Assembly (NCBI GenBank): GCA_947500445.1
Contig: CANMSB010000003.1
Coordinates: 248,001-312,000, forward strand
Origin: an uncultured Flavobacteriaceae bacterium
Lineage (GTDB): Bacteria > Bacteroidota > Bacteroidia > Flavobacteriales > Flavobacteriaceae
Direction of reading: 5' to 3'
DNA length: 64,000 nt
Shown: positions 8,101 to 43,009 of the stretch, piece after piece
How the letters are laid out: each line of letters begins with the position of its first letter
How positions within the stretch are numbered: position 1 is the stretch's first letter
The notes under the pieces: generated by a model
What the model saw: only the letters and a program-made list of their open reading frames with translations
Told to the model about the DNA's origin: nothing
Databases searched by the model: none
Made by a program: the position numbers and the translations under genes

Positions 8101-11100
8101 CGATGGGGTGTCGTGGCGTATCCTATTAGAAGACCTGCATACGCTTTGGCAAATGCCCGAAGCAACGGACTTAAAGGATGGAGTGCTCCCCAACAAGTCT
8201 TTTTCGTACCGTGATTGGGTGGAAAAACTGTACGAAGAAGCAGGGCAAGCAACGTTTGAGGAAGTGGCGCGAGAATACTGGCCTGTAGCAAAGGAAAAAG
8301 ACATGCCAGCGTTGCCGGGACAGGCAATGGCAGCACCAGACCTTGTCCGAGACGCAGCGTACTGTCATGTCTTGTTTGACCAAGACATGACCGAGGCATT
8401 GCGTGGCCCGCTCAATAAGCCGTTCAACACCGATTTGCAAGACTTCCTATTGGCGGCGGTAAGCGATGTGCTTGCAGTGTGGGTGGGAGCCCAAAGCCTG
8501 CCGATTATGCTCGAAGGGCACGGTAGGGAAACCTGGGGTAGTTTTGCCGAGGTTGATTTGAGCCGTACCGTCGGGTGGTTTACCAGTATTTATCCAGTAT
8601 ACCTCACCCGACAAACAGGCCTGCAAGACCAACTTATCCATGTAAAGGAGTGCCTGCGGCGTGTACCGTTTCAAGGCATGGGCTATGGTATGGAGCGATA
8701 CCTGGGCGAAGCAGCCACCCCTGAAGCAGTGCGTTACCCAGTATCTTTCAATTACTTGGGTAGTTTTGACGGGGTCACCCAACCTACCGGAGCATTTAAG
8801 CTTGTCGATGTGCCAGTAGGGCCTATCCAAGCACCAGACGGCCCCCGACAGTTTGCATTGGAAGTATCAGCGGTGGTAGTAGAAGGGCGACTAAGGTTAG
8901 CGTTGGCCTACAACAGGCTATACCATACGCAGCAGGATATGGAACAGCTTTTGGACCAGATCAAAGGTTCGTTGGAAGCTTTGGCCAATATGGCAGCAAG
9001 TCAACAGCGACGTATCTATACACCCACAGATTTTCGCTACAAAGCACTCACCTTGCAACAAGCCAGCGAGCTTGGAGAAACTGAAGCATTGGAGGAGGTT
9101 ATGCCACTAAGCCCTATGCAGGAAGGTATCCTGTTTCATGCCTTGATGGCACCCGACAGTGCGGCATACTTTGAGCAAGTGAGCATGACACTACAGGGAA
9201 AACTGGACATAGCCCGCCTCACCGTATGCTTCCAAATGTTAGGTGAGCGGCATTCGGTACTCAAAGCACGTATATGGGGACAAGCAAGTGGCACCACCCT
9301 GCAAATCATCCCAGCGCAACGGCCCTTGCCAGTGATTCAAGAAGACTTTCGTGACGAAGGGAATCAGCAAGCAGCCATAGAAGCCTGGAAACAAACTGAC
9401 CGCCAACAAGGCTTTGATTTGTATAGCGAGCCACTTACCCGACTGGGTATCCTCAAGATAGCCGAGGATACGCACGAGATTGTCTGGAGCCACCACCATA
9501 TAATCATGGACGGCTGGTGCCTGGGTATTGTGCTGGGCGACTTGTTTGCACTCTATGGGCAGCAGGGTACGCCGAGTTTGGGCAATTTGTCGCCCGTAGC
9601 ACCTTATGCAGCCTACATCGATTGGCTGGATACCGTAGACCGAAAGGCGGCGGAAGCGTATTGGAATGCCTACCTCAATGGTTTTGGGGAAGCCAGCACC
9701 TTGAGCATGCACAAAGAGACCGGTGCAAACGGACAAGGTAGCCAGCGTTTGCGGTTGGGCAAAGTAGTAAGCACGGCACTCAAAGCCTCGGCACAAAAGC
9801 AAGAAGTAACCCTGAACACCACCATCCAGGCATTGTGGGGGGTACTATTGCACAAGCTTGTGCGGCAAACGGACGTATTGTTTGGGGGCGTAGTGTCAGG
9901 CCGCCCTGCCGAACTGCCCGGTGTGGAGCAAATGGTAGGGCTTTTTATCAATACTCTGCCTGTAAGGCTGCAGATTGGCCAGGAAGACACGGTGTGGGGA
10001 GTAGCAGCCCGGCTACAAGGCGATGCCATCGAGGCTACCCCATATCATCATTTTCCACTGGCTGATATTCAAGCCATGCGTGGGGCTAAGCAAGTCCTGT
10101 TCGACCATATTATGGTGTTTGATAACTACCCAGTAGCCGATCAGCTTCAGCAAATTAGCCAACAGGCAGATCAACTACCCGAAGTGGTGGGCATGGGACT
10201 GGTAGAAGCAACACATTATGGACTTACTGTAATCGTAGTGCCCGGAGAGGATATTGAGGTGCGGTTTGAGTATGACAAAGCTACCTATACCGATGCCCAA
10301 ATGGCACAAGTAAGTAGCTGCTTCGAGCGTTTGGCACAGCAAGCCATCGAAACATCCGATACCCCCATCGCATCCCTCAGGCTGTTAAGCGACAGTCAAC
10401 GAAAAGCCTTGCTGGCACATAACCCAAAGCCTGTCAGCTATCCCGATGGAGAAAATGTACCGGTACTCCTCGAAGCTTGTGCTAGTCAAAACCCCGACAA
10501 GCTGGCATTGGTATGCGCAGAGGATCGCTACACCTATCAGGCGCTTGAGGCACTGACCAATCAAGTGGCAAACTATCTGCTGGCCAGCTATGATATTGGT
10601 CCCGACGTTTGCGTAGGCGTGATGTTGCATCGTTCCGCGTGGAGTGTCATCGCGATGAATGCCGTACTCAAAACAGGGGCTTGCTATTTGCCGATAGACC
10701 CGACCCTGCCTGCCGAGCGTATCGATTACATTGTAAATGACGCAAAGCCCGTGGTCATCTTTACCCAGGCAGCGTGTGAAGCAGCGCTGCCACATGAATG
10801 GCAAAACCGGTTGTGCATGGTGGAGGGCCATGAGTGGCAAGACTTCGCTGATCAAAGCCCGGACATTAAAATTGAGGCAGATAGCCTTTCTTACATTATC
10901 TACACCTCTGGCTCTACAGGCACCCCCAAGGGCGTTGCACAAACCCATCGTACTGTTCATAATCTGATTCGCTGGGACATAGATCACTCAGGCATAGCGG
11001 GTGGCTTGCGGCAGTTACAATACAGCGCATTTGGTTTTGATTCCAGTTTGCACGATGCCTGGTTTGTGCTCAGCAATGGCGGTACCTTATACGTAGCAAC

Positions 11101-14100
11101 TGATGAACTACGTACCGATTTTGAAGCACTGTCCACCTATGTAGTGCAAGAAGGGATTGAAGTATTTTCCGTACCGTTTTCGGCATTGGATGCCTTCTTC
11201 TCAATTTATGGTGACAGTGGTTTGTCGGGCCACCAGCTCAAACATTTGATTAGCACCGGGGAGCAATTGTTGGTAAACACACCGCTGAAGCAGTTTTTGG
11301 AAGCCAACCCTGCGGTGTGCTTGCACAACTTTTACGGTCCTAGCGAGACGCATGTGGTCACGGCCGCCAAGCTGTCCGCGGCTATGGGCAACATAACCGA
11401 GCGACCGACCATAGGCTACCCACTCACTAATGCACGCCTATACGTACTTGACGAGCAGTACCACCTGATGCCCGAAGGTGTGCCCGGGCAAATCTTTATT
11501 GCTGGCGAGTACTTGGCTAAAGGCTACCTTGGCAAGATGGCATTGACTTCACAGCGGTTTGTGGACGATCCGTTTTACCCTGGTGAAAAGATGTACGCGA
11601 GTGGAGACCTTGGCCGTTGGCTTCCTGACAGACAAATTGAATACCTTGGCCGCATAGATGATCAGGTGAAAATCCGAGGTTTCCGGGTAGAGCCGGGTGA
11701 AGTTGAAGCGCAAGTCTTGAGGCTGCCGGGTATACAAAAAGCCATGGTCGTTGCCAGTGAGCAAGCAGGAGAACAAACCTTGTTGGCATTTGTAGTGACA
11801 GGGGAAAAGTTTGACGAAACAAAAGCCAAGCAGCAACTAGCAACGGTTTTGCCAGTGTACATGGTTCCTGCAAACATGCAGCAGATCGAAACCTTTCCAC
11901 TTACGCCCAATGGCAAGGTAGACAAGCGTGCTTTGGTGAGTACCATGGCGACGATGGTAACCAGAAAAGGCTATGAACCACCAGTGGGTAGGTTCGAAGA
12001 GGCTTTACAAGCAGTATGGCAAGATGTATTGGCATGTGAGCAAATAGGGGTAACTGACGACTTCTTTGATTTAGGCGGGCACTCCATCAAAGCCATCAAG
12101 CTGGGCAACCTGGTACAGGCCAGGCTACAGCAGCAGCTTACCGTCAGGCAAGTGTTTGAGCACCCGACCATCCGTGTACAGGCGTCCTTGTTAGAAAAGG
12201 AGGGAGTGGATAGCCTGCCACCAATCAAGAGCCTTGCCGGAGCTGCTGACTACCCACTTTCACCTGGGCAGGAGCGTTTGTGGGTATTGTGGCAACTAGG
12301 CACCGATATGGCCGCTTATAATATGCCGGGGATATTTGAGTTGTCAGCGTTGCCCGACGAGGGGATGTTGCGACAAGCGCTCGCCAGCGTTATCAAGCAG
12401 AATCATAGCCTGCGTACTGTGTTCGTTGAGCAAGACGGTGAACCGCGCCAGGCAATCATAGAGCCGGGCGAAGCGTGGTGGCAACAAGTGTGGGAAGAAG
12501 TAGAATTGTCTGGGGAATCCTTGGATAGTGAGGCGACCCATCAGTTGGTACTAGAGAGGGCCCAGAGGGCTTTTGACATGGAAAACGGTCCATTGCTGCG
12601 GGTCTCTCTCGTGAAGCAACCTCAGTCAGGCAAGGCGCTCTTACTGCTGGTCATGTCACATATGATATCCGACGGGTGGTCAATGCAAGTATTATTGACA
12701 ACATGGCTGACCGCTTACGGGCGATTGGCCCAAGGCGAGTCGGTAGCCCTCCCTGCACTGGAAATACAGTACCCGGATTTTGCGGTTTGGCAGCGCGATC
12801 TGCTGGCGTCTGGTACAGGTGATAAGGAAAAGGCCTACTGGCTAAGCCAAATGGCCGGGCCACTCCCGATGATGAACTTGCCCACCGACCGCCCAAGGCC
12901 GAATATCAAGACTTACGAAGGGGCGGTTTACAAGGCAGTGATCCATGACAGTGCTGTCGCAGGCTTGCGGCATTTGGTCAAAGAGGAAGGGGGAAGCCTA
13001 TATATGGGCTTACTCGCGGCATTGTCCGCCTTCTTTTATCGGTATACTGGTGGGCAACGCGATATGGTAATTGGCTCGCCCATGGCGGGTAGGCAACATC
13101 CTTTGTTGAAAGACCAAATAGGGTTGTTTCTCAATACGTTGCCACTACGGGTGCAGCCCGATGGTACACAAGGGTTCGGGGCATTGCTGTCCCAGGCCAA
13201 AACAGTAGCACTTGGTGCGCTCGACAATCAAAACCTACCCTTTCAAGAGTTGGTTGAACACCTCAACGTTCGGCGAGACCTGAGCCGGGAGCCGTTGTTC
13301 GACGTGCTATTAGTGCTGCAAAACATGGTAGACATGACAGCGGGTACCACTACGGCGGGCGGTCTTGAAGTAAAGCCGTATAACCAGGACATAGGGCTGA
13401 GCAAATACGACTTGAGCTTCAACTTTGCCGAAACTACCGTAGGACTGGCCTTGACGCTGGAGTACAATACAGATCTTTTCGATCCCGAAACCGTCCATGC
13501 GATGTGCGAACGGTTTGAACGGCTTTTGCTGGGGATGACACAGCAGCCGGAGTCCCCTATTGCCCAGGTACCATGGCTGGACGAGGCAGAGGAACGATAC
13601 TTGATAGATACACTGGCAGGCAAAGCGGTTGCTTACGACCAGGGTACCCTACATAGCTTAATCTCGGAGCAAGCAGTCCTGACCGCCGACGCTCCGGCAA
13701 TAGGATGTCGGGGCAAGTGGCTTACCTATGGGGAATTGGAAAGGCTGGCCAACCAGGTAGCGCGTTACCTGACCGATGAAATGGGTGTGCAACCAGGTGA
13801 TAAGGTCGGTATACTGTGTCACCGGGATGAAAAAATGGTAGCCTTGCTGTTAGGGGTTCTAAAGACAGGGGCGGCTTATGTCGCCATTGATCCTGCCTAC
13901 CCTGCGACTCGAATCACTTTTATGACCGAAGATGCAGGCCTTACTTTGTTAGTTGCGGAACAGGCAGCGATATCGGGAGGCATTCCGGCTGAACTGACTG
14001 TATTGTCTTTGCAAACACTGTTGGAGGGGGCTACTACCCAAACTACGGATAGCCTGCCAGAAAAGGCTAGTCCCGAAGGCCTGGCCTATATGATCTATAC

Positions 14101-15412
14101 CAGTGGGTCCACCGGACAGCCCAAAGGCGTACAGATAGAGCATTGTCAGGTGACCGCCTTTATGCATTGGTGTCGACAAGAATTTGCCCAATCAGATTAT
14201 CAATTGGCCCTAGCTGTGACTTCCTACTGTTTCGACCTTTCCGTCTTCGAATTGTTCTTTCCGCTCACCGTAGGTAAACCAGTACAGGTGCTAGGTTCAG
14301 GGGTTGAGATTATAGAAGTGCTGCAAACTGCAACCGAACCACTGCTGGTCAACACGGTACCATCGGTAGTGGGTGAGCTCATTGCCGCAGGGGCTGACCT
14401 GTCGCCTATCGCCGTGCTCAATATGGCAGGAGAACCAATCCCATTCCACTTTAAGGAGCATTTTGACCTTGGGCAAATGGAAGTACGCAACCTCTATGGT
14501 CCCAGCGAAGATACTACCTACAGCACCTGCTACCGCTTTGTGCAAACAGACGATGTGATTCCCATCGGCTACCCAATTGCCAATACTTACTGTTACCTGA
14601 TGGATGAAAACGGGCAGCTTACACCTCCTGGGGTGGCAGGAGAGCTATGCCTGTCAGGTGCGGGAGTGGCACGAGGCTACCATGGCCGCCCGACACTGAC
14701 CAGGGAACGTTTTGGCGAAGATCTCTTCCGCCCGGGCAACCGCCTGTACAAGACGGGGGATCTTTGTAAATGGAGGGCTGACGGGCAGCTGGAATACCTC
14801 GGCAGGATCGACAATCAGGTAAAAGTAAGAGGCTTTAGGATCGAGCCGGGGGAGATCGAAAAGGCACTGGCCGCTCACGATGGTATTGGCGAAGCTTTGG
14901 TGGCCGTGTGGGATAGCCCTGATCAAGGCCCCAAGCTGGTAGCTTATGTACAAGCCACAGACGAGGAGTTGGTGGAAGCTGCACAGCAGCGCATCAAACA
15001 ACAACTGCCCGTATACATGCACCCCGACTATGTGGTGATATTGGAAGTGTTTCCCAGAAATACCAACGGCAAAACCGACCGGACAGCCCTACCAGCACCA
15101 CAAGCCAAGGTGGCGCAAGAAGTAACTGCCGCTACCAATGAAGAAGAGGCGCGTGTGATGGCTTGCTGGAAAGCTGTACTCGGGGCCGATGAACTAGGCA
15201 TACACCACAATTTCTTTGAAGCTGGTGGTAATTCGCTCAAGGCAATAAGACTGTTCAAAGCCCTTGACAGCGAATTCCCCAACACCTTTAAAGTCACAGA
15301 CCTGTTTAGCAGGGCGACCATCGCCAGTCAGGCAGCATTTGCCCGAGGGCAAGGCACAAATGGTAAGGAAGGCGAAGGCCCTTCGGAAGAATTGATTGAA
15401 TTAACTTACTAA
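5189..15412 (+). CDS. NRPS subunit: halfC-A-PCP-E-C-A-PCP-C-A-PCP
   Basis: Three-module NRPS of 3407 aa, starting at an ATG 9 bp after the previous stop. Residues 1-235 match only the C-terminal lobe of a condensation domain, with no HHxxxDG. Then A1 (255-745), PCP (S789 in GGDSI), epimerization domain (815-1260; HHLIIDG and EGHGRE motifs intact), a C domain of the kind that accepts a D-residue (1300-1730; HHIIMDG), A2 (1755-2245), PCP (S2299), C (2345-2770; motif SHMISDG, keeping the second, catalytic His), A3 (2800-3290) and PCP (S3349). Hand-read codes: A1 DVWHVSLID-K, close to Ser, so D-Ser after epimerization; A2 DSHFITFVV-K, no match I know; A3 DLFNNALTY-K, Ala or Gly. No terminal release domain: the chain passes to the KS of the next gene, 39 bp downstream. 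Confidence 0.96.
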   Translation: MNTTSQNTRIAYKAANDYWMSKLQDITIPTYSLGIGDKEGSDRLAGQVPATTKALVSHVAKGRDLASSMVYLTVFRALRYHYFRDVDGVTCLPPQKGKEEQQPVYLLLSVNSDTTLRHILKACSEGWKAAYQHAAYEREELAALLASRGFSLEGIGQVAYFDERLHQQHDMSASALGLSLLGEEGAVFEWVYDAVKFPEVYMQQWAGHYLKALACFKEWLDLPIVDWPLLSEEEKLQQLNVWNRTGVDYPDKATLHGLFEEQVKSNGSRTAVADDRQSLTYQALDHAANQLASHLREAYGVGRNDRVAVMLDRGVPLWVALLAVLKTGAAYVPIGTSFPDSRVEFILQDVTPKAMIATSSEVFSDTEIPTLYMDSDEWEHQGGENQLEPVSPDATACIIYTSGSTGTPKGVAVAHRGVVNRIAWQWQALGYGQNDVVLQKTTPTFDVSVWELFMPLAFGARAVACETVTAHDPQLLCEAIERHHVTNLHFVPSMFQAFLENLDTEQLSQTKTLRSIVTSGEALKADTVDKHYDKFPSVPLHNLYGPTEASIDVSWHQAQPGQSVVPIGKPIQNIKLHICDENGRLLPAGAVGEINIAGIGLAHGYVNQPKLTADKFVAGALPLRETTYRTGDLGRWLPNGEIAYMGRTDHQVKLRGFRIELGEIESVLLRHQAVNACAVLLKASPDRLVAFLVGAGQGQEENLHAHMEANLPAYMVVHQLVHIAEMPLTPSGKADRKALACLEEGGGMVGQYTPPQSDEEKLLVEVWQAVLQKEQVGITDNFFHLGGDSIVAIQVVSRLAAAGYQLQVKQLLKDPYIDRLAQIMERRQNMASQALVTGRSRLAPMQWHLVVHNGVHMHHFNQVMSLAVDSLPTIDRLRQLFAQLAQHHDMLRFTYHVEDNYPYGYIHDGQAIPEVLEASLQSEADEQKDLEQLVTEAQASFNLQSGPLLKAIAVRSTTQDYLLLIAHHLIIDGVSWRILLEDLHTLWQMPEATDLKDGVLPNKSFSYRDWVEKLYEEAGQATFEEVAREYWPVAKEKDMPALPGQAMAAPDLVRDAAYCHVLFDQDMTEALRGPLNKPFNTDLQDFLLAAVSDVLAVWVGAQSLPIMLEGHGRETWGSFAEVDLSRTVGWFTSIYPVYLTRQTGLQDQLIHVKECLRRVPFQGMGYGMERYLGEAATPEAVRYPVSFNYLGSFDGVTQPTGAFKLVDVPVGPIQAPDGPRQFALEVSAVVVEGRLRLALAYNRLYHTQQDMEQLLDQIKGSLEALANMAASQQRRIYTPTDFRYKALTLQQASELGETEALEEVMPLSPMQEGILFHALMAPDSAAYFEQVSMTLQGKLDIARLTVCFQMLGERHSVLKARIWGQASGTTLQIIPAQRPLPVIQEDFRDEGNQQAAIEAWKQTDRQQGFDLYSEPLTRLGILKIAEDTHEIVWSHHHIIMDGWCLGIVLGDLFALYGQQGTPSLGNLSPVAPYAAYIDWLDTVDRKAAEAYWNAYLNGFGEASTLSMHKETGANGQGSQRLRLGKVVSTALKASAQKQEVTLNTTIQALWGVLLHKLVRQTDVLFGGVVSGRPAELPGVEQMVGLFINTLPVRLQIGQEDTVWGVAARLQGDAIEATPYHHFPLADIQAMRGAKQVLFDHIMVFDNYPVADQLQQISQQADQLPEVVGMGLVEATHYGLTVIVVPGEDIEVRFEYDKATYTDAQMAQVSSCFERLAQQAIETSDTPIASLRLLSDSQRKALLAHNPKPVSYPDGENVPVLLEACASQNPDKLALVCAEDRYTYQALEALTNQVANYLLASYDIGPDVCVGVMLHRSAWSVIAMNAVLKTGACYLPIDPTLPAERIDYIVNDAKPVVIFTQAACEAALPHEWQNRLCMVEGHEWQDFADQSPDIKIEADSLSYIIYTSGSTGTPKGVAQTHRTVHNLIRWDIDHSGIAGGLRQLQYSAFGFDSSLHDAWFVLSNGGTLYVATDELRTDFEALSTYVVQEGIEVFSVPFSALDAFFSIYGDSGLSGHQLKHLISTGEQLLVNTPLKQFLEANPAVCLHNFYGPSETHVVTAAKLSAAMGNITERPTIGYPLTNARLYVLDEQYHLMPEGVPGQIFIAGEYLAKGYLGKMALTSQRFVDDPFYPGEKMYASGDLGRWLPDRQIEYLGRIDDQVKIRGFRVEPGEVEAQVLRLPGIQKAMVVASEQAGEQTLLAFVVTGEKFDETKAKQQLATVLPVYMVPANMQQIETFPLTPNGKVDKRALVSTMATMVTRKGYEPPVGRFEEALQAVWQDVLACEQIGVTDDFFDLGGHSIKAIKLGNLVQARLQQQLTVRQVFEHPTIRVQASLLEKEGVDSLPPIKSLAGAADYPLSPGQERLWVLWQLGTDMAAYNMPGIFELSALPDEGMLRQALASVIKQNHSLRTVFVEQDGEPRQAIIEPGEAWWQQVWEEVELSGESLDSEATHQLVLERAQRAFDMENGPLLRVSLVKQPQSGKALLLLVMSHMISDGWSMQVLLTTWLTAYGRLAQGESVALPALEIQYPDFAVWQRDLLASGTGDKEKAYWLSQMAGPLPMMNLPTDRPRPNIKTYEGAVYKAVIHDSAVAGLRHLVKEEGGSLYMGLLAALSAFFYRYTGGQRDMVIGSPMAGRQHPLLKDQIGLFLNTLPLRVQPDGTQGFGALLSQAKTVALGALDNQNLPFQELVEHLNVRRDLSREPLFDVLLVLQNMVDMTAGTTTAGGLEVKPYNQDIGLSKYDLSFNFAETTVGLALTLEYNTDLFDPETVHAMCERFERLLLGMTQQPESPIAQVPWLDEAEERYLIDTLAGKAVAYDQGTLHSLISEQAVLTADAPAIGCRGKWLTYGELERLANQVARYLTDEMGVQPGDKVGILCHRDEKMVALLLGVLKTGAAYVAIDPAYPATRITFMTEDAGLTLLVAEQAAISGGIPAELTVLSLQTLLEGATTQTTDSLPEKASPEGLAYMIYTSGSTGQPKGVQIEHCQVTAFMHWCRQEFAQSDYQLALAVTSYCFDLSVFELFFPLTVGKPVQVLGSGVEIIEVLQTATEPLLVNTVPSVVGELIAAGADLSPIAVLNMAGEPIPFHFKEHFDLGQMEVRNLYGPSEDTTYSTCYRFVQTDDVIPIGYPIANTYCYLMDENGQLTPPGVAGELCLSGAGVARGYHGRPTLTRERFGEDLFRPGNRLYKTGDLCKWRADGQLEYLGRIDNQVKVRGFRIEPGEIEKALAAHDGIGEALVAVWDSPDQGPKLVAYVQATDEELVEAAQQRIKQQLPVYMHPDYVVILEVFPRNTNGKTDRTALPAPQAKVAQEVTAATNEEEARVMACWKAVLGADELGIHHNFFEAGGNSLKAIRLFKALDSEFPNTFKVTDLFSRATIASQAAFARGQGTNGKEGEGPSEELIELTY

Positions 15413-15451
15413 GCCAATAGGGCTTCAATAGTAAAAAACAAATTAGCCAAC

Positions 15452-27208: not shown

Positions 27209-27209
27209 T

Positions 27210-33011: not shown

Positions 33012-34251
33012 TGAAACACAGCCTGCTCAAGAGGCATGGCTATTTCCCGGTGGTGGCTGTCAGTATGTGGGCATGGGCAAGGCACTCTATGACAATTTTG
33101 CCATGGCCCGGGAAGCCTTTGAAGAGGCGGAAGACTTGCTAAAGCTCCATCTGGCCAAGACATGTTTTGAAGGCCCGCTGGATACCTTGAGTAGCATGGA
33201 ATATGCGCAGCCTGCGATATTCGTAGTGAGCCTGGCCAGTTACCGGGTATATACGCAGGAGTTGGGCAAGGTGCCGGGTATACTGGCAGGACATAGCCTG
33301 GGAGAGTATACGGCACTGTGTGCAGCCGGGGTCTTTTCATTGACAGACGCATTGCAGCTTGTGGGGATACGTGGGGAGCTACTCAAAGCAGCAGGCATTG
33401 ATGCAGATGGCACCATGATGGCTGTCAATAAACTGCCTGTGGCACAAGTAGAGGCGATGGTGAAAGTACGCCAGGCAGCAGGAGACCAGATATACATGGC
33501 TGTGTACAACGCCCCGTTTCAAGTCGTGGTGTCGGGGCAACGGCAGCATTTGGAAAACCTCGGGAGCCTTTTGGAGGCTGAAGGAGGGCATATTAATATG
33601 TTGCCCATCAATACTCCGTCGCACTGTCCATTGATGCAAACGGCAGCCGACCATATGAGGAACGCCCTGGAAGATTATACCCCAAGTGTCATGAAGGTGC
33701 CCGTGGTGGCGAACCTTACTGGCGAACCTTATCAAGGTGTTGAGTCGGTCATTGATACTTTAACAACGCATATGATAGCGCCGGTACGATGGGAGCAGTC
33801 GATGCGGTACATGCAGGCACAGGGGTACCAAACTTATACCGATGTAGGCCCTCGTCAGGTGTTGGAGAAAATGACCGAGCATATACTGACCGGCGCTACC
33901 GCATACAGTCTTGATAATAACGTGGACGTGGACATGCTATATGCTACAGCAGGCAAAACCCGCCCGAACTTGTACGCTCTCATGCGCGCATTTGAGGTGA
34001 TGGCGATCAGCACCCCTGATTTTGGTGACGATACTGAAGGGTATGCTAAGCGTGTAGGGGTACCATTCGAGCGGTTACAAGCGAAGGCGCGGGCTGCTAC
34101 TCCTGAAAGTACAGACGATCATATGGTGATGGATGCTTACCAGACATTGACTGAAGTATGGGACGGAAAAGCTGTGCCGACTGCCAACCGTACGGCTTTG
34201 ATGGATCATTATTTAGTGAAGACGGGTACGCAAGGGCGGTTCGGGTTTTGA
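32986..34251 (+). CDS. Discrete malonyl-CoA acyltransferase acting in trans
   Basis: Free-standing acyltransferase, about 421 aa, expected to transfer malonyl-CoA to the ACPs of the two PKS modules that lack a working AT. It has the nucleophile elbow GHSLGE (S104), the N-terminal FPGGG..YVGMG oxyanion region and the distal His (H213, TPSHCPLM). A small hydrophobic residue after the Ser favours malonyl over methylmalonyl. It overlaps the end of the preceding gene by about 26 bp, suggesting translational coupling; an ATG at 32995 and a TTG at 32971 are alternative starts in the same frame. The last 60 or so residues extend past the usual AT core and match nothing I recognise. Its place inside the operon, between the two AT-deficient PKS genes, supports the trans-loading role. 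Confidence 0.9.
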   Translation: MNLMNLTYNETQPAQEAWLFPGGGCQYVGMGKALYDNFAMAREAFEEAEDLLKLHLAKTCFEGPLDTLSSMEYAQPAIFVVSLASYRVYTQELGKVPGILAGHSLGEYTALCAAGVFSLTDALQLVGIRGELLKAAGIDADGTMMAVNKLPVAQVEAMVKVRQAAGDQIYMAVYNAPFQVVVSGQRQHLENLGSLLEAEGGHINMLPINTPSHCPLMQTAADHMRNALEDYTPSVMKVPVVANLTGEPYQGVESVIDTLTTHMIAPVRWEQSMRYMQAQGYQTYTDVGPRQVLEKMTEHILTGATAYSLDNNVDVDMLYATAGKTRPNLYALMRAFEVMAISTPDFGDDTEGYAKRVGVPFERLQAKARAATPESTDDHMVMDAYQTLTEVWDGKAVPTANRTALMDHYLVKTGTQGRFGF

Positions 34252-34588: not shown

Positions 34589-37500
34589 ATGATGAATATC
34601 AAGGACACTGACATAGCGATTATTGGGATGGCGGGGCGGTTTCCGGAAGCTGCTGATATTACGGCTTACGTGGAAAACCTCCGGGGAGGGTGTAATAGCG
34701 TACGTGAAATTTCTATCGATCGTAAGCGGGACACTGCACTGATGCCGCACTTAGACTATCAGGTGATTGGCTTTTTAGAGGATATTGACAAGTTTGACCA
34801 TCATTACTTTGGCATATCGATGGGGGAGGCGCGCTATATGGACCCGCACCAAAGGCTCTTGCTAGAAGTAGCACATGAGGCTATTGAGCATGCTGGCTAT
34901 GCGCTAGAGGCACTTTCGGGTACCGATACTGCGGTGTTTGTAGGCAGTACCAAGCAGGTTTACGGCCAGTTGAGCGACGAGCCGCACCCGATGTTGATCA
35001 CGGGTACCAGCAATCCTACTACTGCGGGGCGAGTATCCCGGTTTTTCAATTTTTGCGGTACTGCGGCGATGGTGGATACAGCTTGCTCTTCCTCCTTACT
35101 GGCCTTGCACCTAGCCTGCAACGAACTGCGCCAACAAGATGCGTCGCTGGCCTTGGCTTGTGGGGTCAACTTATTGCTTTTCCCTGCTACCAAAGGTGTG
35201 GTGAGCGAAGTAGATATCATGTCGCCCGATGGGCTGGCCAAAACCTTTGATGAATCTGCAAACGGCACTGCTGCAGGTGAGGCGGTAGGGGTGGTGTTGC
35301 TCAAACCATTGGCGAAAGCCCTGGAAGATGGCGACACGGTGTATACGGTAGTCAAGGGTTCGGCAGCTAACCAAGATGCCCAGCGTTCGAGTAGCCTCAC
35401 TGCGCCTAGTGCCGATGCGCAAGCCGAGGTTATTCAGAAAGCCTGGCGCAAAGCAGGGCTGGAAGGCCAATTGCCAGGATATATAGAGGCGCACGGCACC
35501 GGTACCAAACTAGGCGACCCCATAGAAGTGGAGGGCATCAGCCGGGCTTTTGGCACATTGACGGACAAGAAACAGTTTTGTGCCATATCGGCAGTCAAGA
35601 CCAACATTGGGCATACAGATTCTGCCGCTGGCATTAGCGGATTGATCAAGGCAGTGCTATCACTCTATCATAAAGAGCTGTTCCCAAGCTTGCATTTGTC
35701 TTCACCCAACCCATTTATCGATTTTATCAATTCAGCGGTCTATGTCAATACGGTTTTGCAACATTGGGACGTGCCTGAGGGGCAAACCAGGTTGGCAGGT
35801 GTCAATTCATTTGGTATATCAGGCACTAATTGTCATGTAGTGCTGCAAGAAGCACCTGAAACCCAAAAAGCAGACGAAGATACACGGGCTTTGCCTGTTG
35901 GGCCAATACTACTCTCTGCCAATACAGAGGCACAACTTGTGCTCCAGGCAACACGCTTGGCCGATTGGCTGGAAGGCAACCCCCACACTGAGATGTCAGC
36001 AATTGCCGCTACGTTGTCGGCAGGCCGTACACACTATACTTCCCGTGGTGTGTTGGTAGCACAACATATTCCGGAGTTGGTCGCCCAACTCCGGGATTTT
36101 GTGCCTGATAATCAAACCAAGACCGTTACCGGACGGTGGGTGGTATTTTCTGGGGACTGGCAGCCGGGCGATGCATTGATAAAACAGGCATTGCATTTCC
36201 CTGCTTTCCGAGTGGCTTGGGAGGCTTGCCAGGCAACAGGCAGCAAGCTGGAAGATGCCGTGCAACGAGGCTTTGCATTTCGCTACAGCTACTATAAGCT
36301 GCTCGACCAGCTTGGGTTGGGCAGCAAAAAAATCATGGGGACGGGTGTCGGAAAATTGGTTACAGCAGTACTACAAGGCAAAAAAGGGTTAAAAGAGGCA
36401 TTGGATGACGCGAAGGGGTTTGCTTACACGCCTGATAAGGCGTTGCCTAAAAAGCTAAAAGCCTTTATCGATACCAAACTTGCTGCAGGCGAAGAAGTGG
36501 TAGAGGCAGGCGGCGCGGGTGAGATTTCCCATACCCTTCAGTTGCTCGATGCACAGCTTCCGGTACATGCATTAGACAATGATAGTTTTGCACCGATGAT
36601 GGCATGGCTGGGTGCTTGCTATAAGCAAGGGGCGGTCATTCATTGGGAGGCATTGTATAGTTTCAAAAATTACCAACGCATAGGCTTGCCCGGTTATCCT
36701 TTTGAGCGTACCCACTGTTGGGTTAAAGGAGCGGACAGCCTGCAACGGAGTGGCCCTGAGGAGTGGTTTTACAAACCTGGCTGGTTAGAAGGTACTGCGA
36801 TGCCGGAGGGCGAAATACCACAAAATATGGCCTGGCTGTTGTTGGGAGAGCATGATGAGGCTACCGATATGCTTCATGCACGGTTGCAGGATGCAGGCAA
36901 TGAAGTAGTACGGGTGATGCATGGCACTGCTTTTGAAAAACCAACAGGCCATGGGGTGAGTTATCAATTGGATATGGCCAGTGAAACGCAAGTGCGTAAG
37001 CTCTACGGTGCCCTGCGGCAACAGGCAGTAGAGATCGGTGGCATTGCGATGGTAGAGATGGCTCCTGTGGATGGTACAGGTACCATGGAAAGCATTGAGC
37101 AGCAACAAAATCAACTGCTGTTGGCCCGTCAGGCATTGGCAAACGTATTTTACGACCGTTTTGCTACCCCGGGGTTTGTACTATGGCAATTATCTAGTCA
37201 GTCGGAGGCGGTGTTGGAAAATGAGCTAGCTTCCCCCTTTAAACATGCACAGGGTGTATGGTTAAGGGCTATGCAAAGTGATTTTCCTCAATTGCAGGTC
37301 ACGGGTATAGATGTTCAGGAGGGTTGCCCAATCCATGAGGCGGTAGGTTACCTGGTCAATGAAGCTGCTGCTGATCCATTGCACCGTTTTGTAGCTTACA
37401 GGGCAGGACGGCGGTATGTGCCACGGCTCGATGCATTGCCCATGTCCAAAACGGAGGATCCATTGCCATTGGGTAAACCAGAAGGTACTTACCTGGTTAC

Positions 37501-40500
37501 TGGTGGTGCCGGAGGTATTGGCCTGGCGGTATGTGAGCAATTGGCGCGTGATGGAGCAGGCAAACTGGTCATTTTAGGACGGTCTGCATTGCCTGAGCAG
37601 GCATCATGGCGGGGGCTTGCCGATCAAAACCAAAAGTTTGCCCGGTTGGTAGCGTTGTGCGATCAGGTCAGTGAGGTGTCGTATCATGCTGTAGACATGG
37701 GCGATTCGGAAGGGTTGCAAGCTGTATTGAAAGACTTAGATGGCGTAAATGGCGTGATCCACGCCGCTGGAGTACTTGGCCAACAACGCCCGGCTAACAA
37801 ATGTACCGGTCAAGGGTTTAAAAACACACTCGCTCCCAAAGTAACCGGCAGTGTTGTTTTAGGGCAATGGGCGAAGAAGCAACCTATGGATTTTTTCATC
37901 CTGTTCTCATCGCTCAATGCGATCGTGCCGCAAGCCAATACGGCAGATTACGCAATGGCCAATGCATTTGAAGATGCTTATGCCGCTACCTTGCGTACCG
38001 AAGGGCTACCTGCTATGGCGATCAACTGGGGTGTCTGGGGCGAAACAGGCATGGGCAAAAGGGTAGCGGTGGAATCTTACGAAAACAGGATGGCACCATT
38101 GCGCGCATGGAAAACCGAAGAGGGCATTCAGGCTTTGTGTATGGCCGTGCATAACCAGGGGGCGCAGGTACTGATTGGCGATATAAGCCTGGAACAGTTT
38201 GCGCAAAACCCATTTTTTGCTGTAAACGAGGGAGCAGCAGGGTTTGCCCATAAACATGCTCACGGAAAGCAATCACCCAATTATCATATTGACTCAGCTG
38301 CTAGTGCACAGGAAAAAGCATTGCTTAAGATATGGTACGACTTGTTGAAATCGCCCAGTATTGGCCTGAGAGATAACTTCTTTAACCTGGGTGGGCACTC
38401 ACTGTTGGCAGGCAGGCTGATCAACAGGGTGAAGAAAAAGTGGAAAGTGGCCTTGGCCTTCAAAGATGTTTTGGAGAACCCCACCGTAGGCCAAATGGCG
38501 ACTTTGATAGACAAGAAGGCACAGACAGGAGATACTGAAAGCAAGGTTGTACAAATACCATTGGTACCAGAAGCTGCCAGTTATCCACTTTCACATGCGC
38601 AAAACCGATTGTGGGTATTGAGTCAGTTCGATGAGGCTTCGGGCGTTGCCTATCATATCCCGTGGGCCTATGTGTTACATGGCGAATTGGACAAGGCAGC
38701 ATTCGAAAAGGCGATAAGGTACGTAGCTGCACGACATGATGCTCTGCGTACTTCCATTGTGCTGTTAGAGGGGGAACCAAGACAGGTGATTGCAAGCATA
38801 GATGACTTTACTCCCAACCTATCATGGGACCAACTGGAAGGTGCCGATACCGGTAGCCAGGAAGTGTTGGCGTTGACCAGGCAAGAAGCAGCGACAATAT
38901 TCGACTTGCAATCAGGGCCGCTCTGGCGTTGCCGTATGACAACGTTGGGGCCACAGCGTTGCCTGATGACCCTAACCTTACACCACATTATTAGTGATGG
39001 CTGGTCACTCAACATCATGGCACGTGAGCTAACGCAGGCTTATAACGATTTTAAAGCTGGCAATACCCCCAAAACACCATCCCTACGTTTGCAATACAAA
39101 GACGTAGCAGCCTGGCAAAACCTACAATTGGACGGTGCTAGCGTGAAAAACCACCAGCAGTATTGGCTCAAACAACTCTCCGGGCCAGTGGCACCACTCA
39201 ATCTCCCCACTGATAAGCCTCGCCCGGCGGTGAAGTCTTATGAAGGTAGCAAAGTGACCTTTGATTGGGGCGGTGTGGTGAGTGACCAGCTCAAATCTCT
39301 CAGCCAGCAAGGACAGGCCAGCTTGTTTATGGCACTGCATGCGCTTGTCAAATTGTTGCTATATAAATATAGCAACCAGCAAGACCTCATCGTGGGTACG
39401 CCAGTGGCAGGCAGAGAGCACCCTGAACTTGAATCGCAATTAGGCTTATACCTTAATACACTGGCGTTGCGCAGCCAGTTAGCACCAGAACGATCTTTTA
39501 ACGAATGGATGTCGCAGGTGAAATCCGAAACACTGGAAGCGCTTACACACCAATCGTACCCGTTTGACAAGTTGGTAGACGATTTGCGCCTGAAGCGTGA
39601 TACAAGCCGGTCGCCATTGTTTGATGTGATGATGCAAGTGCTCAATACCGAGGCAGCTGGCGACACGGCCAGTTTGCAGATGGACGGTTTGACCGCCGAA
39701 CCTGTGGAAGACCAGCATGAAGCGAGCCAGTTTGACCTATCATTTATCTTCAACGATACACCCAGAGGCCTATTGCTGGTCATTGAATACAATACAGCCT
39801 TGTTTCGCCCGGAGCGTGTAACCAGGATGGCGCATCACCTGGAAGCCCTTGCGTTGGCAGTTACCGCGAATCCTGAAAAGCCTTTGAAATCGATTTCGAT
39901 GTTGTCTGAGCAGGAGGCGGCAATCATTAAAACGTTTAGCACAGGTGTACCAGTTGAGTCTACTATTACACATAGTTTGGTTGATAGGCTGACCAGTCAG
40001 GTTGCCAAAGACCCAGACCAAGTTGCACTGGTTGATGGGGTATCAAGCCTCACTTTGAGTGAGTTTGATGCACAAAGCACCCGTATTGCCCAACATATTC
40101 TGGCGATGGGATTACCAGCCCCATTGCGGATTGCCCTGGTGTGTGGGCGTTCGCGGTGGCTGCCATTAGGCGTGTGGGGTATTTTGAAAGCGGGTGCGGC
40201 TTATGTGCCCGTGAGTGCAGACTATCCCGACGCACGAAAACAACAAATGCTATCGGATGCAGGCATTGGCTTGATCTTAACCGATGGCCCGCGCTCCATG
40301 GAGGGTTTTGGTTTGCCAGTAGCCCATATAGAGGATTGGGTATCCACAGCTGCCCCTGATATAGAGGCGATGCCCCAAACTACTGCTGAGACGGTGGCTT
40401 ATGCCCTCTATACGAGTGGCACTACCGGCCTGCCTAAGTCAAGCCTCACATGCCATGGTTCTGTATTGAATTTGGCAAACTGGCTTGATGGGTTGTTCTA

Positions 40501-43009
40501 CAAGAATTTTCAAGGTACGCCACGGGCACTGCTGACAGCGGCCTATACTTTTGATGCTTCGGTGCAGCAGTTGTTTGCGCCATTGTTGTATGGTGGTACG
40601 CTGGTAATGATTGATGAGGCAACACGGCGTGACCCGGTGGCCTACACTGAGGCACTTTGTGACTTTGGTGCTGATATCATCGACATTACGCCTGCTTATC
40701 TACGTCTGGTGCTTGACCATTGCCTTGAAGCAGGCCTACGGCCTCCGGTAAAGATGGTGCTGGTAGGGGGTGAGGCATTGACTGATGGCCTGATAGCAGA
40801 TTTTCGCAAAGTAATGCCCAAAGACAGCCGTTTAGTCAACGTATATGGCGTGACCGAAGCTACTGTCAATAGTACCTTTGAAGAAGTGGGCGATCGCCGT
40901 GCCCATTCCCACAGTATAGGTAAGCCACTGCCGGGTACCGAAGTGTGGCTACTGGATACCAACGGCTTGCCAGTACCGATTGGCGTACCGGGCGAGCTAT
41001 GTGTGGCGGGGCGTGGGGTGGCGCTGGGCTATCTGAACCGCCCGCAACTACAGCAGCAACGATTTACCTCCCATCCTGCCCTGACCAAAGGCCTGGTATA
41101 CCACACTGGCGATATGGGGTATTGGCTGGAAACGGGTGAGCTGGTATTCATCGGGCGTAGTGACCATCAGGTAAAGCTACGGGGCTACCGTATAGAGCTG
41201 GACGAGGTGGCTACGGCACTTGGTACTTTACCGGAAGTGCGCGAAGCAACCGTAACCACATGGGGCGAGGGTGAAGCTATGCAATTGGTGGCATGGGTTG
41301 CTGGTAACAAAGCCTTGGAAAGTGCTGCTTTGCAAACCAAACTGCGCGAAAAACTCCCTGCTTACATGGTGCCTGAGCGCTGGCGCTTGCTTGATGTATT
41401 GCCCAAAAACCAATCAGGAAAAATAGACCGTGCTGCATTGCAAAATACACCACTCACTAATGAGGATGAGAAGCAACCGGATAGGCCACCAGCAACCCAG
41501 GAAGAAAAGGCACTGGTAGAAGCATGCGAAGCAGTACTTGGAACAAGTGGCCTGGGCGTGGAATCTGATTTCTTTGAGTTGGGAGGCAACTCGCTCAAAG
41601 CCATTAGGCTGGTGAACAAACTCAGGGGCATATACATGCTGCATATCAACGATGTGTTTGCTTACCCAAAACTATCTGATATGTCACAACGTCTACGGGC
41701 AGTCGCGCAAGACCGGGTAGCCACGCTGGGCATGTTGTTGGAAAAAGAAAGTCTAGATGCCCAGCCTGAGATCACCGAAGAAGAGATGGCGCGTTTTGAA
41801 GATTACTTTGAAACAGCCATTCAGACATACGATAGCCAGTATCAGGAGGAGCTATCAGGGGTTGATCTGCAAGCAACAGCAGCCTATCAACATATCTTAC
41901 TCACGGGTGCTACAGGATATTTAGGAGCCTATTTGCTCAGAGGGCTGTTGAATAATCACACCACCAAAGTGTCAGTGTTGGTGCGTGGTGAAAGCCCGGC
42001 GAAGGCCTTTGGGCGGCTAAAGGATAAAATGACTTACTACTTTGGCAATGATTGGGTCAATAGTCAACTAGATAGCGTACAAGTATTGGCAGGTGATGTA
42101 GCCTCCGAAAAACTAGGCCTTGATGAAGCAACCTACGTGCAGTTGGCTAGTGCTGTAGATTGTATTATCAATTCGGCGGCCAACGTACGGCATTATGGCA
42201 CACACGCCGATTTTGAATCGGTCAATGTAGATGGACCCCGCAGGCTTTTGGCGTTTTGCAGAGAAGGCAGGCAAAAAAGTATGCACCATATTTCTACCAT
42301 GAGTGTAGCTGGTGGCAAGGTGCCCAGCAAGCCTTACATGTTGTATACCGAGTATGACCGCGACGTAGGGCAAGAGGCAGGCAATTTTTATGTACGTTCC
42401 AAACTTGCCGCTGAAAAGATGTTGGCCAATGAACCAGAAGTGACCTTTTATCGGGTAGGATCGGTGATGTTTGATTCCAGTACGGGCCGGTTTCAGGAAA
42501 ATATGGCAGACAATGCCTTCTATCATTCTTTGAGACACTTTATAGATATGGGGCATGTTCCGGCTATCGGCCTGATGATGGAATTTTCTTATGTAGACAA
42601 GGTAGCAGAGGCTGTATTGCGATTGTTTGATAAGCAATCGTTGCATGGTATGACCCACCATCTTTACAACCCTGAAACACCCGACACCGCGCAGTTTGTA
42701 ACATTCTTGTCAAATTGCGGATATGAGATAACACTCAATAGTCTGCCCGATTTTCTTCGCTTTCTGTTGGACCACCACGAAAAATATCAAGAGGTGATCG
42801 ATGAGTTGTTGTTTAGGTATCAGGAGTTTATCCAGGCAGATCAGCCCTTTACCTATTTCAGGTTAGCATCAGGCCGTACGCTTACTTTATTGAAACAACT
42901 TGGCTTTGACTGGCCCCCACTAGCACAACAACATATTGATATGATGGTAAAACATTGCCAGGACCGAGGGTATTTTCCGGTAAGCTTACCATACCAGCGT
43001 GAATATTGA
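34589..43009 (+). CDS. Terminal hybrid PKS-NRPS: KS-AT(vestigial)-KR-ACP-C-A-PCP-R
   Basis: 2806-aa final synthase of the first cluster. KS triad C166 (DTACSSS), H302 (EAHGTG), H342 (GHTDSAAG). Its AT region (about 440-720) is vestigial: GTGVGK replaces GHSxG (G586 for Ser), as in the other PKS gene. KR has TGGAGGIG near 970 and Y1121, and looks active. ACP S1271; C (1320-1750; HHIISDG); A (1775-2270) with code DAQDLGVVN-K, one residue from the Gln code DAQDLGVVDK; PCP S2335. The C-terminus (about 2415-2800) is a thioester reductase of the short-chain dehydrogenase type: GATGYLG near 2440 and a YxxxK pair, Y2601 and K2605. It should release the peptide with NAD(P)H as an aldehyde or alcohol instead of by a thioesterase. 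Start is ATG 34589, or the next codon, also ATG. Confidence 0.96.
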   Translation: MMNIKDTDIAIIGMAGRFPEAADITAYVENLRGGCNSVREISIDRKRDTALMPHLDYQVIGFLEDIDKFDHHYFGISMGEARYMDPHQRLLLEVAHEAIEHAGYALEALSGTDTAVFVGSTKQVYGQLSDEPHPMLITGTSNPTTAGRVSRFFNFCGTAAMVDTACSSSLLALHLACNELRQQDASLALACGVNLLLFPATKGVVSEVDIMSPDGLAKTFDESANGTAAGEAVGVVLLKPLAKALEDGDTVYTVVKGSAANQDAQRSSSLTAPSADAQAEVIQKAWRKAGLEGQLPGYIEAHGTGTKLGDPIEVEGISRAFGTLTDKKQFCAISAVKTNIGHTDSAAGISGLIKAVLSLYHKELFPSLHLSSPNPFIDFINSAVYVNTVLQHWDVPEGQTRLAGVNSFGISGTNCHVVLQEAPETQKADEDTRALPVGPILLSANTEAQLVLQATRLADWLEGNPHTEMSAIAATLSAGRTHYTSRGVLVAQHIPELVAQLRDFVPDNQTKTVTGRWVVFSGDWQPGDALIKQALHFPAFRVAWEACQATGSKLEDAVQRGFAFRYSYYKLLDQLGLGSKKIMGTGVGKLVTAVLQGKKGLKEALDDAKGFAYTPDKALPKKLKAFIDTKLAAGEEVVEAGGAGEISHTLQLLDAQLPVHALDNDSFAPMMAWLGACYKQGAVIHWEALYSFKNYQRIGLPGYPFERTHCWVKGADSLQRSGPEEWFYKPGWLEGTAMPEGEIPQNMAWLLLGEHDEATDMLHARLQDAGNEVVRVMHGTAFEKPTGHGVSYQLDMASETQVRKLYGALRQQAVEIGGIAMVEMAPVDGTGTMESIEQQQNQLLLARQALANVFYDRFATPGFVLWQLSSQSEAVLENELASPFKHAQGVWLRAMQSDFPQLQVTGIDVQEGCPIHEAVGYLVNEAAADPLHRFVAYRAGRRYVPRLDALPMSKTEDPLPLGKPEGTYLVTGGAGGIGLAVCEQLARDGAGKLVILGRSALPEQASWRGLADQNQKFARLVALCDQVSEVSYHAVDMGDSEGLQAVLKDLDGVNGVIHAAGVLGQQRPANKCTGQGFKNTLAPKVTGSVVLGQWAKKQPMDFFILFSSLNAIVPQANTADYAMANAFEDAYAATLRTEGLPAMAINWGVWGETGMGKRVAVESYENRMAPLRAWKTEEGIQALCMAVHNQGAQVLIGDISLEQFAQNPFFAVNEGAAGFAHKHAHGKQSPNYHIDSAASAQEKALLKIWYDLLKSPSIGLRDNFFNLGGHSLLAGRLINRVKKKWKVALAFKDVLENPTVGQMATLIDKKAQTGDTESKVVQIPLVPEAASYPLSHAQNRLWVLSQFDEASGVAYHIPWAYVLHGELDKAAFEKAIRYVAARHDALRTSIVLLEGEPRQVIASIDDFTPNLSWDQLEGADTGSQEVLALTRQEAATIFDLQSGPLWRCRMTTLGPQRCLMTLTLHHIISDGWSLNIMARELTQAYNDFKAGNTPKTPSLRLQYKDVAAWQNLQLDGASVKNHQQYWLKQLSGPVAPLNLPTDKPRPAVKSYEGSKVTFDWGGVVSDQLKSLSQQGQASLFMALHALVKLLLYKYSNQQDLIVGTPVAGREHPELESQLGLYLNTLALRSQLAPERSFNEWMSQVKSETLEALTHQSYPFDKLVDDLRLKRDTSRSPLFDVMMQVLNTEAAGDTASLQMDGLTAEPVEDQHEASQFDLSFIFNDTPRGLLLVIEYNTALFRPERVTRMAHHLEALALAVTANPEKPLKSISMLSEQEAAIIKTFSTGVPVESTITHSLVDRLTSQVAKDPDQVALVDGVSSLTLSEFDAQSTRIAQHILAMGLPAPLRIALVCGRSRWLPLGVWGILKAGAAYVPVSADYPDARKQQMLSDAGIGLILTDGPRSMEGFGLPVAHIEDWVSTAAPDIEAMPQTTAETVAYALYTSGTTGLPKSSLTCHGSVLNLANWLDGLFYKNFQGTPRALLTAAYTFDASVQQLFAPLLYGGTLVMIDEATRRDPVAYTEALCDFGADIIDITPAYLRLVLDHCLEAGLRPPVKMVLVGGEALTDGLIADFRKVMPKDSRLVNVYGVTEATVNSTFEEVGDRRAHSHSIGKPLPGTEVWLLDTNGLPVPIGVPGELCVAGRGVALGYLNRPQLQQQRFTSHPALTKGLVYHTGDMGYWLETGELVFIGRSDHQVKLRGYRIELDEVATALGTLPEVREATVTTWGEGEAMQLVAWVAGNKALESAALQTKLREKLPAYMVPERWRLLDVLPKNQSGKIDRAALQNTPLTNEDEKQPDRPPATQEEKALVEACEAVLGTSGLGVESDFFELGGNSLKAIRLVNKLRGIYMLHINDVFAYPKLSDMSQRLRAVAQDRVATLGMLLEKESLDAQPEITEEEMARFEDYFETAIQTYDSQYQEELSGVDLQATAAYQHILLTGATGYLGAYLLRGLLNNHTTKVSVLVRGESPAKAFGRLKDKMTYYFGNDWVNSQLDSVQVLAGDVASEKLGLDEATYVQLASAVDCIINSAANVRHYGTHADFESVNVDGPRRLLAFCREGRQKSMHHISTMSVAGGKVPSKPYMLYTEYDRDVGQEAGNFYVRSKLAAEKMLANEPEVTFYRVGSVMFDSSTGRFQENMADNAFYHSLRHFIDMGHVPAIGLMMEFSYVDKVAEAVLRLFDKQSLHGMTHHLYNPETPDTAQFVTFLSNCGYEITLNSLPDFLRFLLDHHEKYQEVIDELLFRYQEFIQADQPFTYFRLASGRTLTLLKQLGFDWPPLAQQHIDMMVKHCQDRGYFPVSLPYQREY

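Follow-up and report, generated by a model that had tools for sequence, protein, structure and literature searches.

A Probable Trans-AT-Fed Lipopeptide Assembly Line with Two Predicted 4-Amino-3-Hydroxypentanoyl Units and a Terminal Thioester Reductase in an Uncultured Flavobacteriaceae Bacterium

The window analyzed here, that is, the whole stretch of 64,000 nucleotides at C3:248001-312000 of the 5.2-Mb host genome, contains the tail of a lipopeptide assembly line for 15 amino acids that is started by a fatty-acyl-AMP ligase (FAAL). On the strength of its domain order, motifs and adenylation codes, we consider it likely that this line has two modules fed in trans by a discrete AT, builds two 4-amino-3-hydroxypentanoyl units into a lipopeptide, adds a Gln-type residue and releases the chain by reduction.

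In the mechanism that we propose, the acyl chain loaded by the FAAL would be extended along 15 NRPS and 4 PKS modules, and at two points it would be tethered to a PCP through an alanyl thioester, the Ala being selected by an A domain with the code DLFNNALTYK. The KS that comes next would accept this thioester and condense it with malonate supplied in trans by the discrete AT, after which the KR would reduce the beta-ketone to give a 4-amino-3-hydroxypentanoyl unit. Thr, Cys and Thr would be inserted between the two hydroxy units and a Gln-type residue after the second, before the R domain frees the chain as an aldehyde or alcohol. An aldehyde at Gln could cyclize onto the side-chain amide, giving a cyclic hemiaminal with a ring of six, and a second reduction would yield glutaminol. 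The predicted tail reads ...D-Ser-X-[Ala-CH(OH)CH2CO]-Thr-Cys-Thr-[Ala-CH(OH)CH2CO]-Gln-H/ol.

Organization of the Gene Run

The genes of the line are co-directional; those upstream of the window start at C3:212287, 35.7 kb before it, and the run stops at position 43009, where the G+C content drops from about 0.51 to 0.34 (table 1). Following the 4781-aa protein, the open frames at 5189-15412, 15452-27208, 27114-33011, 32971-34251 and 34589-43009 are all free of stops and on the + strand; 39 bases separate the first two (15412/15452), the next pairs overlap by 95 bases (27208/27114) and 41 bases (33011/32971), and 337 bases precede the last frame. A chance artefact, a frameshift or a pseudogene was considered and is ruled out, because the long frames are open and the motifs of the KS, KR, carrier and R domains are retained.

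By Pfam, the proteins starting at 15452 and 34589 both open with KS, KR and carrier domains, and the latter closes with C, A, carrier and NAD_binding_4 (thioester reductase) domains. An amino-acid-activating module lies directly upstream of the KS at both junctions, as judged from gene order and domains. The initial annotation had described two KS-KR-ACP modules, each directly following a module with the code DLFNNALTYK, and a line that closes with a Gln-type module and a thioester reductase; gene order, Pfam domains and codes confirm the first description, and the code DAQDLGVVNK, the NAD_binding_4 domain and the R motifs confirm the second.

Table 1. Features of the assembly line in the window (positions of the window; amino acid types are those that we assign to the codes; dAT, vestigial AT)
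Feature	Position	Strand	Remarks
NRPS, 3' part of 4781-aa protein	1-5179	+	Starts at C3:238834, 9.2 kb before the window; TubC_N docking, C-A-PCP modules (Ile-, Thr-, Asn- and Ala-type codes), closing C domain
Third DLFNNALTYK A domain, on the 4781-aa NRPS	~2070-3780	+	Next domain is a C domain rather than a KS
3407-aa NRPS	5189-15412	+	A(Ser code)-PCP-E-C-A(DSHSITFVVK)-PCP-C-A(DLFNNALTYK)-PCP; E versus C by motif
Final module of 3407-aa NRPS, C-A(DLFNNALTYK)-PCP	12248-15240	+	A domain at ~13650-15180; predicted Ala (or Gly) source of the first statine-like unit
3918-aa PKS-NRPS	15452-27208	+	KS-dAT-KR-ACP-C-A(Thr code)-PCP-C-A(Cys code)-PCP-C
First statine-type PKS module	15467-19309	+	KS, vestigial AT, KR, carrier domain
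KS Cys motif, first statine-type module	15932-15955	+	
Altered GHSxGE motif of vestigial AT, first statine-type module	17198-17221	+	GDGVGKLV
1965-aa NRPS	27114-33011	+	N-terminal C-domain-like stub, A(Thr code)-PCP-C-A(DLFNNALTYK)-PCP
Final module of 1965-aa NRPS, C-A(DLFNNALTYK)-PCP	29787-32830	+	A domain at ~31200-32750; predicted Ala (or Gly) source of the second statine-like unit
Discrete FabD-like acyltransferase	32971-34251	+	GHSLG, NTPSHC; C-terminal extension of ~110 aa
2806-aa PKS-NRPS	34589-43009	+	KS-dAT-KR-ACP-C-A(DAQDLGVVNK, Gln-type)-PCP-R
Second statine-type PKS module	34607-38509	+	KS, vestigial AT, KR, carrier domain
Altered GHSxGE motif of vestigial AT, second statine-type module	36338-36361	+	GTGVGKLV
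Terminal thioester reductase domain	41891-42973	+	TGATGYLG, YVRSK

Upstream Start and Length of the Line

The first genes of the line lie 33-36 kb before the window and encode a tryptophan-halogenase-family protein (Trp_halogenase), a PhyH oxygenase and the FAAL loader, a protein with the order FAAL-ACP-KS-AT-DH-MT-KR-ACP in which the last ACP is recognized by motif only. Ahead of its first KS, the loader has AMP-binding, DIP2-like AMP and PP-binding domains, that is, a fatty-acyl-AMP ligase with its carrier at the very start of the line. It is followed by C-A(Gly code)-PCP, KS-AT-KR-DH-ACP, TubC_N-C-A-PCP-C-A-PCP and then TubC_N with four C-A-PCP modules and a C domain. Together with the genes in the window, the co-directional run comprises 15 amino-acid (NRPS) modules and 4 PKS modules. 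This upstream part holds a third junction from NRPS to PKS, in which a Gly code is followed by KS-AT-KR-DH and which could produce an unsaturated gamma-amino acid. The initial annotation had mentioned neither this junction nor the upstream start, nor the AT remnants and the discrete AT.

With its FAAL start and this number of modules, the line probably makes a long lipopeptide with an N-acyl group rather than a short, pepstatin-like aldehyde. Within the line, the Ser module is followed by a domain with the motif HHLIIDGVSW, which we take as the mark of an E-type domain, and several C domains have a GMLF/GMFF-like C1 motif, presumably typical of C domains that follow D-residues.

The same assembly may well produce a membrane-active lipopeptide antibiotic in which the hydroxy-gamma-amino units are backbone spacers, a possibility to which we give nearly an even chance. 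The predicted molecule, a long N-acyl peptide with mixed L and D residues and a reduced C-terminus, is comparable in outline to linear gramicidin and the peptaibols. The FAAL start with its 15 A domains, the E-type domain together with the C domains bearing the GMLF/GMFF-like motif, and the thioester reductase at the end are all consistent with such an activity, even if an unreduced aldehyde would be an unusual end for a peptide of this kind. Moreover, the authors describing the chitinimine pathway, which is compared with our line below, liken it to the pathway of the zeamines, which are broad-spectrum antibiotics (PMC13291983).

Adenylation Codes and the Identity of the Extended Residue

For each of the 15 A domains, the ten residues that govern specificity were read against a GrsA ruler, which is 100% identical to residues 234-526 of PDB 1amu_A. 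In line order, the codes are DILQLGMIWK, DGFFLGVTFK, DPAPFGAICK, DGFFLGVTFK and DFWNIGMVHK (modules 1-5); DLTKIGEVGK, DLFNNALTYK, DVWHVSLIDK, DSHSITFVVK and DLFNNALTYK (modules 6-10); and DFWNIGMVHK, DLYDFSLVWK, DFWNIGMVHK, DLFNNALTYK and DAQDLGVVNK (modules 11-15). We take DILQLGMIWK to be the classical Gly type and assign DGFFLGVTFK to Ile, DFWNIGMVHK to Thr, DLTKIGEVGK to Asn, DVWHVSLIDK to Ser, DLYDFSLVWK to Cys and DAQDLGVVNK to Gln, while DPAPFGAICK and DSHSITFVVK are left without an assigned amino acid.

Three A domains among the 15 carry the code DLFNNALTYK; two lie directly before a KS and the third before a C domain. These three domains share 43-47% mutual identity and are therefore no recent copies of each other. 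When the 3 KS junctions are placed at random after the 15 A modules, at least two of them follow DLFNNALTYK in 37 of 455 ways (8%); taken alone, the pairing of this code with a KS is only mildly non-random, and the claim rests on the anatomy of the modules. We take DLFNNALTYK to be a code for Ala (or Gly), as it is presumably listed for both amino acids; a literature search for DLFNNALTYK, DLFNNAL or the spaced letters gave no match, and since the string was not found in print this assignment stays provisional.

Should the code activate Gly, the two units would be gamma-amino-beta-hydroxybutyrate (GABOB) without a statine-like side chain. This outcome agrees with the initial annotation, which itself had called Ala or Gly, with the listing of the code for both residues, and with microsclerodermin, in which GABOB reportedly derives from Gly plus a PKS module. 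However, the line already has a code of the classical Gly type, DILQLGMIWK, in its first NRPS module, and this is clearly distinct from DLFNNALTYK. For this reason Ala is weakly favoured as the predicted substrate of DLFNNALTYK, and we regard GABOB units as unlikely. An Ala-derived unit has a methyl group where statine has an isobutyl group.

Reductive Release and the Question of Protease Inhibition

The R domain that closes the line has the motifs TGATGYLG and YxxxK (as YVRSK). It aligns over the full length of TIGR01746, scoring 199 bits, below the NCBIfam cut-off of 213, and lies above the cut-off in Pfam. By sequence, its closest solved relatives are 8v1x, in which the chain is named type I polyketide synthase, and MxaA (4u7w), the R domain of AusA being also among the solved homologues. 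AusA and MxaA are R-terminated NRPS systems with a terminal thioester reductase as here, whereas the chain they carry is different. From sequence, the C-terminus may be an aldehyde or an alcohol. The reductive release anticipated by the initial annotation agrees with the intact R motifs, while the imine that it also envisaged is unlikely to form as a macrocycle with the N-terminus, because the N-terminal nitrogen should be acylated. We do not file the line among the synthetases of small peptide aldehydes either: it has their terminal reductase, but its co-directional gene run, which encodes 15 A domains together with 4 PKS modules, does not fit a short chain of few residues.

This bears on the proposal that the product is a pepstatin-like or peptide-aldehyde protease inhibitor, in which the hydroxy units would mimic the transition state and a C-terminal glutaminal would be the warhead. 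Two predicted 3-hydroxy-4-amino units ahead of an R domain would suit such a function, but statine needs its isobutyl side chain to act on pepsin-type enzymes. The statine-bearing thalassospiramides are described as inhibitors of calpain, although their activity is tied to the C-terminal macrocycle in the same account (PMC5577590). Against this proposal, the inhibitory aldehydes made by NRPS are termed small peptide aldehydes in the literature on them (PMC10548850), in contrast with the 15-residue line found here, and pepstatin itself is presented as the product of a KR-free route with the F420H2-dependent PepI (PMC12081711). We therefore judge a pepstatin-type inhibitor improbable, and give better odds to a lipopeptide that acts on membranes or in some other way. 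The protease-inhibitor function put forward by the initial annotation is consequently not supported, for the region is the tail of a 15-amino-acid, FAAL-started line and the route to pepstatin is different; what stands of that proposal, as a prediction, is the pair of Ala-derived gamma-amino-beta-hydroxy units and the reductive end, which remain the straightforward reading of the domains and catalytic motifs present, but not as parts of a compact product resembling pepstatin.

Two KS-KR Modules with Remnant Acyltransferases

Both statine-type modules possess the Cys/His/His residues of the KS, the Ser/Tyr/Asn/Lys residues of the KR and the Ser of the carrier domain. The two modules are only 37% identical to each other, and the retention of KS, KR and carrier motifs in both copies at such a distance argues for long selection. 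Their AT region, in contrast with these domains, is reduced to a remnant of about 300 aa, in which GHSxGE is replaced by GxGVGKLV and the Arg and His motifs of AT are lost. The GHSxGE motif is intact in the two upstream PKS modules of the line, in a neighbouring cluster and in the discrete AT. The latter scores 261.0 bits against the fabD model, with a cut-off of 260.9, and its gene starts within the last 41 bases of the NRPS gene ahead of it, with the second KS-KR gene coming next.

Since only AT remnants remain, leaving no functional cis AT in either module, and a discrete AT is encoded in the cluster between them, both KS-KR modules are probably of trans-AT type, and the discrete AT is by its position the candidate loader of the two. 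Matches to this protein at 1e-40 occur in 362 of 395 genomes of the phylum; among the matches listed, those in other genomes have 31-41% identity, mostly in frames of about 300 aa, and for these reasons they probably represent housekeeping FabD. That the modules are instead starved or skipped, with plain Ala at those places and the discrete AT serving another purpose, would be consistent with the absence of a working AT in either module, but it is very improbable given an AT gene that lies inside the run, between an NRPS gene that it overlaps and the second KS-KR gene, and catalytic motifs kept in both copies despite their divergence.

In a tree of 8 sequences, the KS domains of the two modules group with that of an AT-degenerate module in a Bacteroidales MAG (locus L027), with support values of 100/99. 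The L027 module has the same kind of AT remnant (ATGIGKII), two carrier domains and no KR. The structure predicted for the AT remnant by AlphaFold, from an alignment of 3 sequences, has a mean pLDDT of only 49.9. As to stereochemistry, neither KR shows the Trp that we take as the A-type fingerprint or the LDD that we take as the B-type fingerprint, and the configuration of the hydroxyl groups cannot be called for this reason. Two C domains deviate from the HHxxxDG motif, the one after the first unit having HHIVSDL and that of the Ala module before the first KS having SHMISDG; both retain the second His and the Asp.

Comparison with Known Systems

The bleomycin pathway is said to contain an Ala-PKS-Thr segment in which Ala is extended by a KR-bearing PKS module before Thr is added, as at the first junction here; it reportedly differs in the C-methylation of the unit, in a cis-AT and in yielding a glycopeptide. 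The closest published parallel is the chitinimine synthetase (ChtnA-C) of Chitinimonas koreensis, a lipid-primed hybrid line with Gln in its product. Its peptide contains Leu-Gln-4-amino-3-hydroxypentanoic acid and thus the very unit that we predict, which its authors propose to arise from an L-Ala module and the KR-bearing PKS module behind it (PMC13291983). That pathway, as presented there, differs from ours in having one unit instead of two, Gln before the unit instead of after the second, a lipid from a PUFA synthase, and a proposed macrolactamization by TE instead of a reductase; the biosynthesis section describes no discrete trans-AT, whereas here a discrete AT is encoded in the cluster (PMC13291983).

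The thalassospiramide and didemnin pathways also form statine-type residues by pairs of NRPS and KR-bearing PKS modules and appear to use trans ATs, which the authors propose to come from primary metabolism; in addition to this origin of the AT, which here lies in the cluster, they differ in the amino acids used and in the TE given in the scheme legends (PMC5577590). Pepstatin shares with our prediction two statine units in a linear N-acyl peptide, and a related cluster subtype is reported to have a trans-AT PKS; yet its units derive from Leu and are made by discrete iterative NRPS and PKS proteins lacking KR, the ketones being reduced by PepI only after release, while here both statine-type modules contain a KR (PMC12081711). 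By analogy, therefore, the line is of the kind seen in the chitinimine, thalassospiramide and didemnin pairs, unlike the pepstatin pathway. The same 2025 paper calls the KR route to statine units not experimentally verified (PMC12081711).

Distribution among Relatives

When the last protein of the run was compared with 60 relatives (own genome included), none of the matches listed in other genomes spanned the region from KS to R; these matches covered parts only, with 23-46% identity. In plasmids, tblastn with the same protein gave NRPS-PKS matches below 34% among the 20 listed. A query extending from the remnant AT to the ACP matched 91 of 395 phylum genomes at 1e-3, own included, the best other match by E-value having 28% identity over KR and carrier only, and 9 of 397 family genomes at 1e-25, again with the own genome.

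We compared 11 loci from 11 other genomes, namely 7 of the 8 other family matches (G029 was left out), 3 further phylum matches and 1 from the set of 60 relatives; only 4 of the other genomes in the 91-genome list were thus covered, G175 being counted among the 7 family matches. The GxGxGK mark of the remnant was absent from frames of at least 600 aa in all 11 loci, L027 being the locus that has it. In 5 of the 11 (L050, L053, L067, L068 and L069), the stretch between a KS and the KR after it lacks an AT motif, and rarity of AT-less KS-KR modules among relatives, which we had entertained, is dropped on this account. Judging from their motifs, such modules exist in relatives, even after an NRPS module. 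In L050 (genome G323, contig C9), for example, a KS-KR without AT motif immediately follows the PCP of an NRPS module, and the same contig encodes an AT-like protein, as here; its AT is wholly gone instead of leaving a remnant, a DH-like stretch lies between KS and KR (by eye), the KS is preceded by the Thr-like code DLWNIGMIH, and the end is thioesterase-like (by eye) and not a reductase.

The form with an AT remnant and a KR, doubled and ahead of a reductase, was not found again in the relatives compared. A contig scan, with two short peptide patterns only, gave two loci and is thus a weak test of rarity; of the two, L027 covers the query end to end without a KR, with 35% identity in the best segment. 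The genome samples were even draws, and rarity is not proven for this reason. Literature searches gave no match for peptide glutaminals among nonribosomal peptides and no published equivalent of the predicted lipopeptide scaffold.

Evolutionary and Functional Implications

The types of components found in this line are known, and it is their combination that may be new. More tentatively, and with clear doubt on our part, the two modules could represent a distinct lineage of AT-degenerate KS, perhaps restricted to Bacteroidota and served by an AT of its own cluster, which makes statine-type units within an otherwise cis-AT line; the product would be a new scaffold, namely a lipo-pentadecapeptide in which PKS modules extend three of the amino acids, that of the Gly module with KR-DH and two that become 4-amino-3-hydroxypentanoates, and with a C-terminal glutaminal closing to 5-amino-6-hydroxypiperidin-2-one.

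The presence of two copies of the KR route in one line, together with a separate AT, makes this route to statine units testable in vitro using excised modules. If our reading of the line is true, trans-AT and cis-AT modules would share one chain.

Possibly Related Modules and a Possible Subunit Docking Device of the First Line

Modules that share features with the two AT-degenerate KS-KR modules of the first line occur in other genomes. The L027 locus of a Bacteroidales MAG encodes a KS-dAT-ACP-ACP-C module that has the same AT remnant and lacks a KR, while the AT motif of one PKS at this locus is likewise altered, to GSHIG; by eye, one gene there also looks carbamoyltransferase-like. In the genome G323, the L050 locus (G323:C9:5001-25000) combines an NRPS with a KS-KR module devoid of any AT motif, and the module preceding it carries the Thr-like code DLWNIGMIH. 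This system, from another family, is possibly a relative in logic of the first-line modules.

Both first-line proteins that start with an A domain have an N-terminal stub. The two stubs share 25% identity (6e-17), and the downstream one is similar to two C domains over their C-terminal half, with a best E-value of 1.5e-10. The protein preceding each of them ends in a complete C domain followed by a short acidic tail, and together these elements possibly form a subunit docking device.

Features of the two lines, their surroundings and related loci
Feature	Position	Strand	Remark
Tryptophan-halogenase-family protein + PhyH oxygenase	C3:212287-214843		~33-36 kb upstream of the window
N-terminal stubs	5189-5960 and 27114-27990		~260-290 aa each
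Histidine kinase + LuxR-type response regulator	43989-45734	-	between first and second lines
Short frames	~46600-47054		weak HTH/transposase-type + DUF6444 matches
CmlA-type diiron beta-hydroxylase	47219-48811	-	CmlA_N, 310 bits
Class III aminotransferase	48857-50227	-	separate gene
Second hybrid line	51376-64000, continuing to contig end C3:312864		by-eye reading of translation; KS + AT motifs
L027 PKS, AT-remnant module and carbamoyltransferase-like gene	L027:1620-14212		Bacteroidales MAG
AT-like protein	G323:C9:35670-36557		same contig as L050

Possible Tailoring Genes and the Second Hybrid Line

The genes for the halogenase-family protein and the PhyH oxygenase directly precede the FAAL gene of the first line, and the modules with the two unassigned A codes, DPAPFGAICK and DSHSITFVVK, could be those whose residues these enzymes modify.

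The regulator pair, of G+C 0.30-0.34, is adjoined by the short frames. The second line (G+C ~0.42) is truncated by the contig end. Read by eye, its translation shows a FAAL and KS-AT modules, together with a class III aminotransferase that lies in-line and a C domain; in outline, this resembles mycosubtilin/iturin synthetase. Next to it lie the genes for the CmlA-type beta-hydroxylase and the separate class III aminotransferase, which are perhaps its tailoring enzymes.
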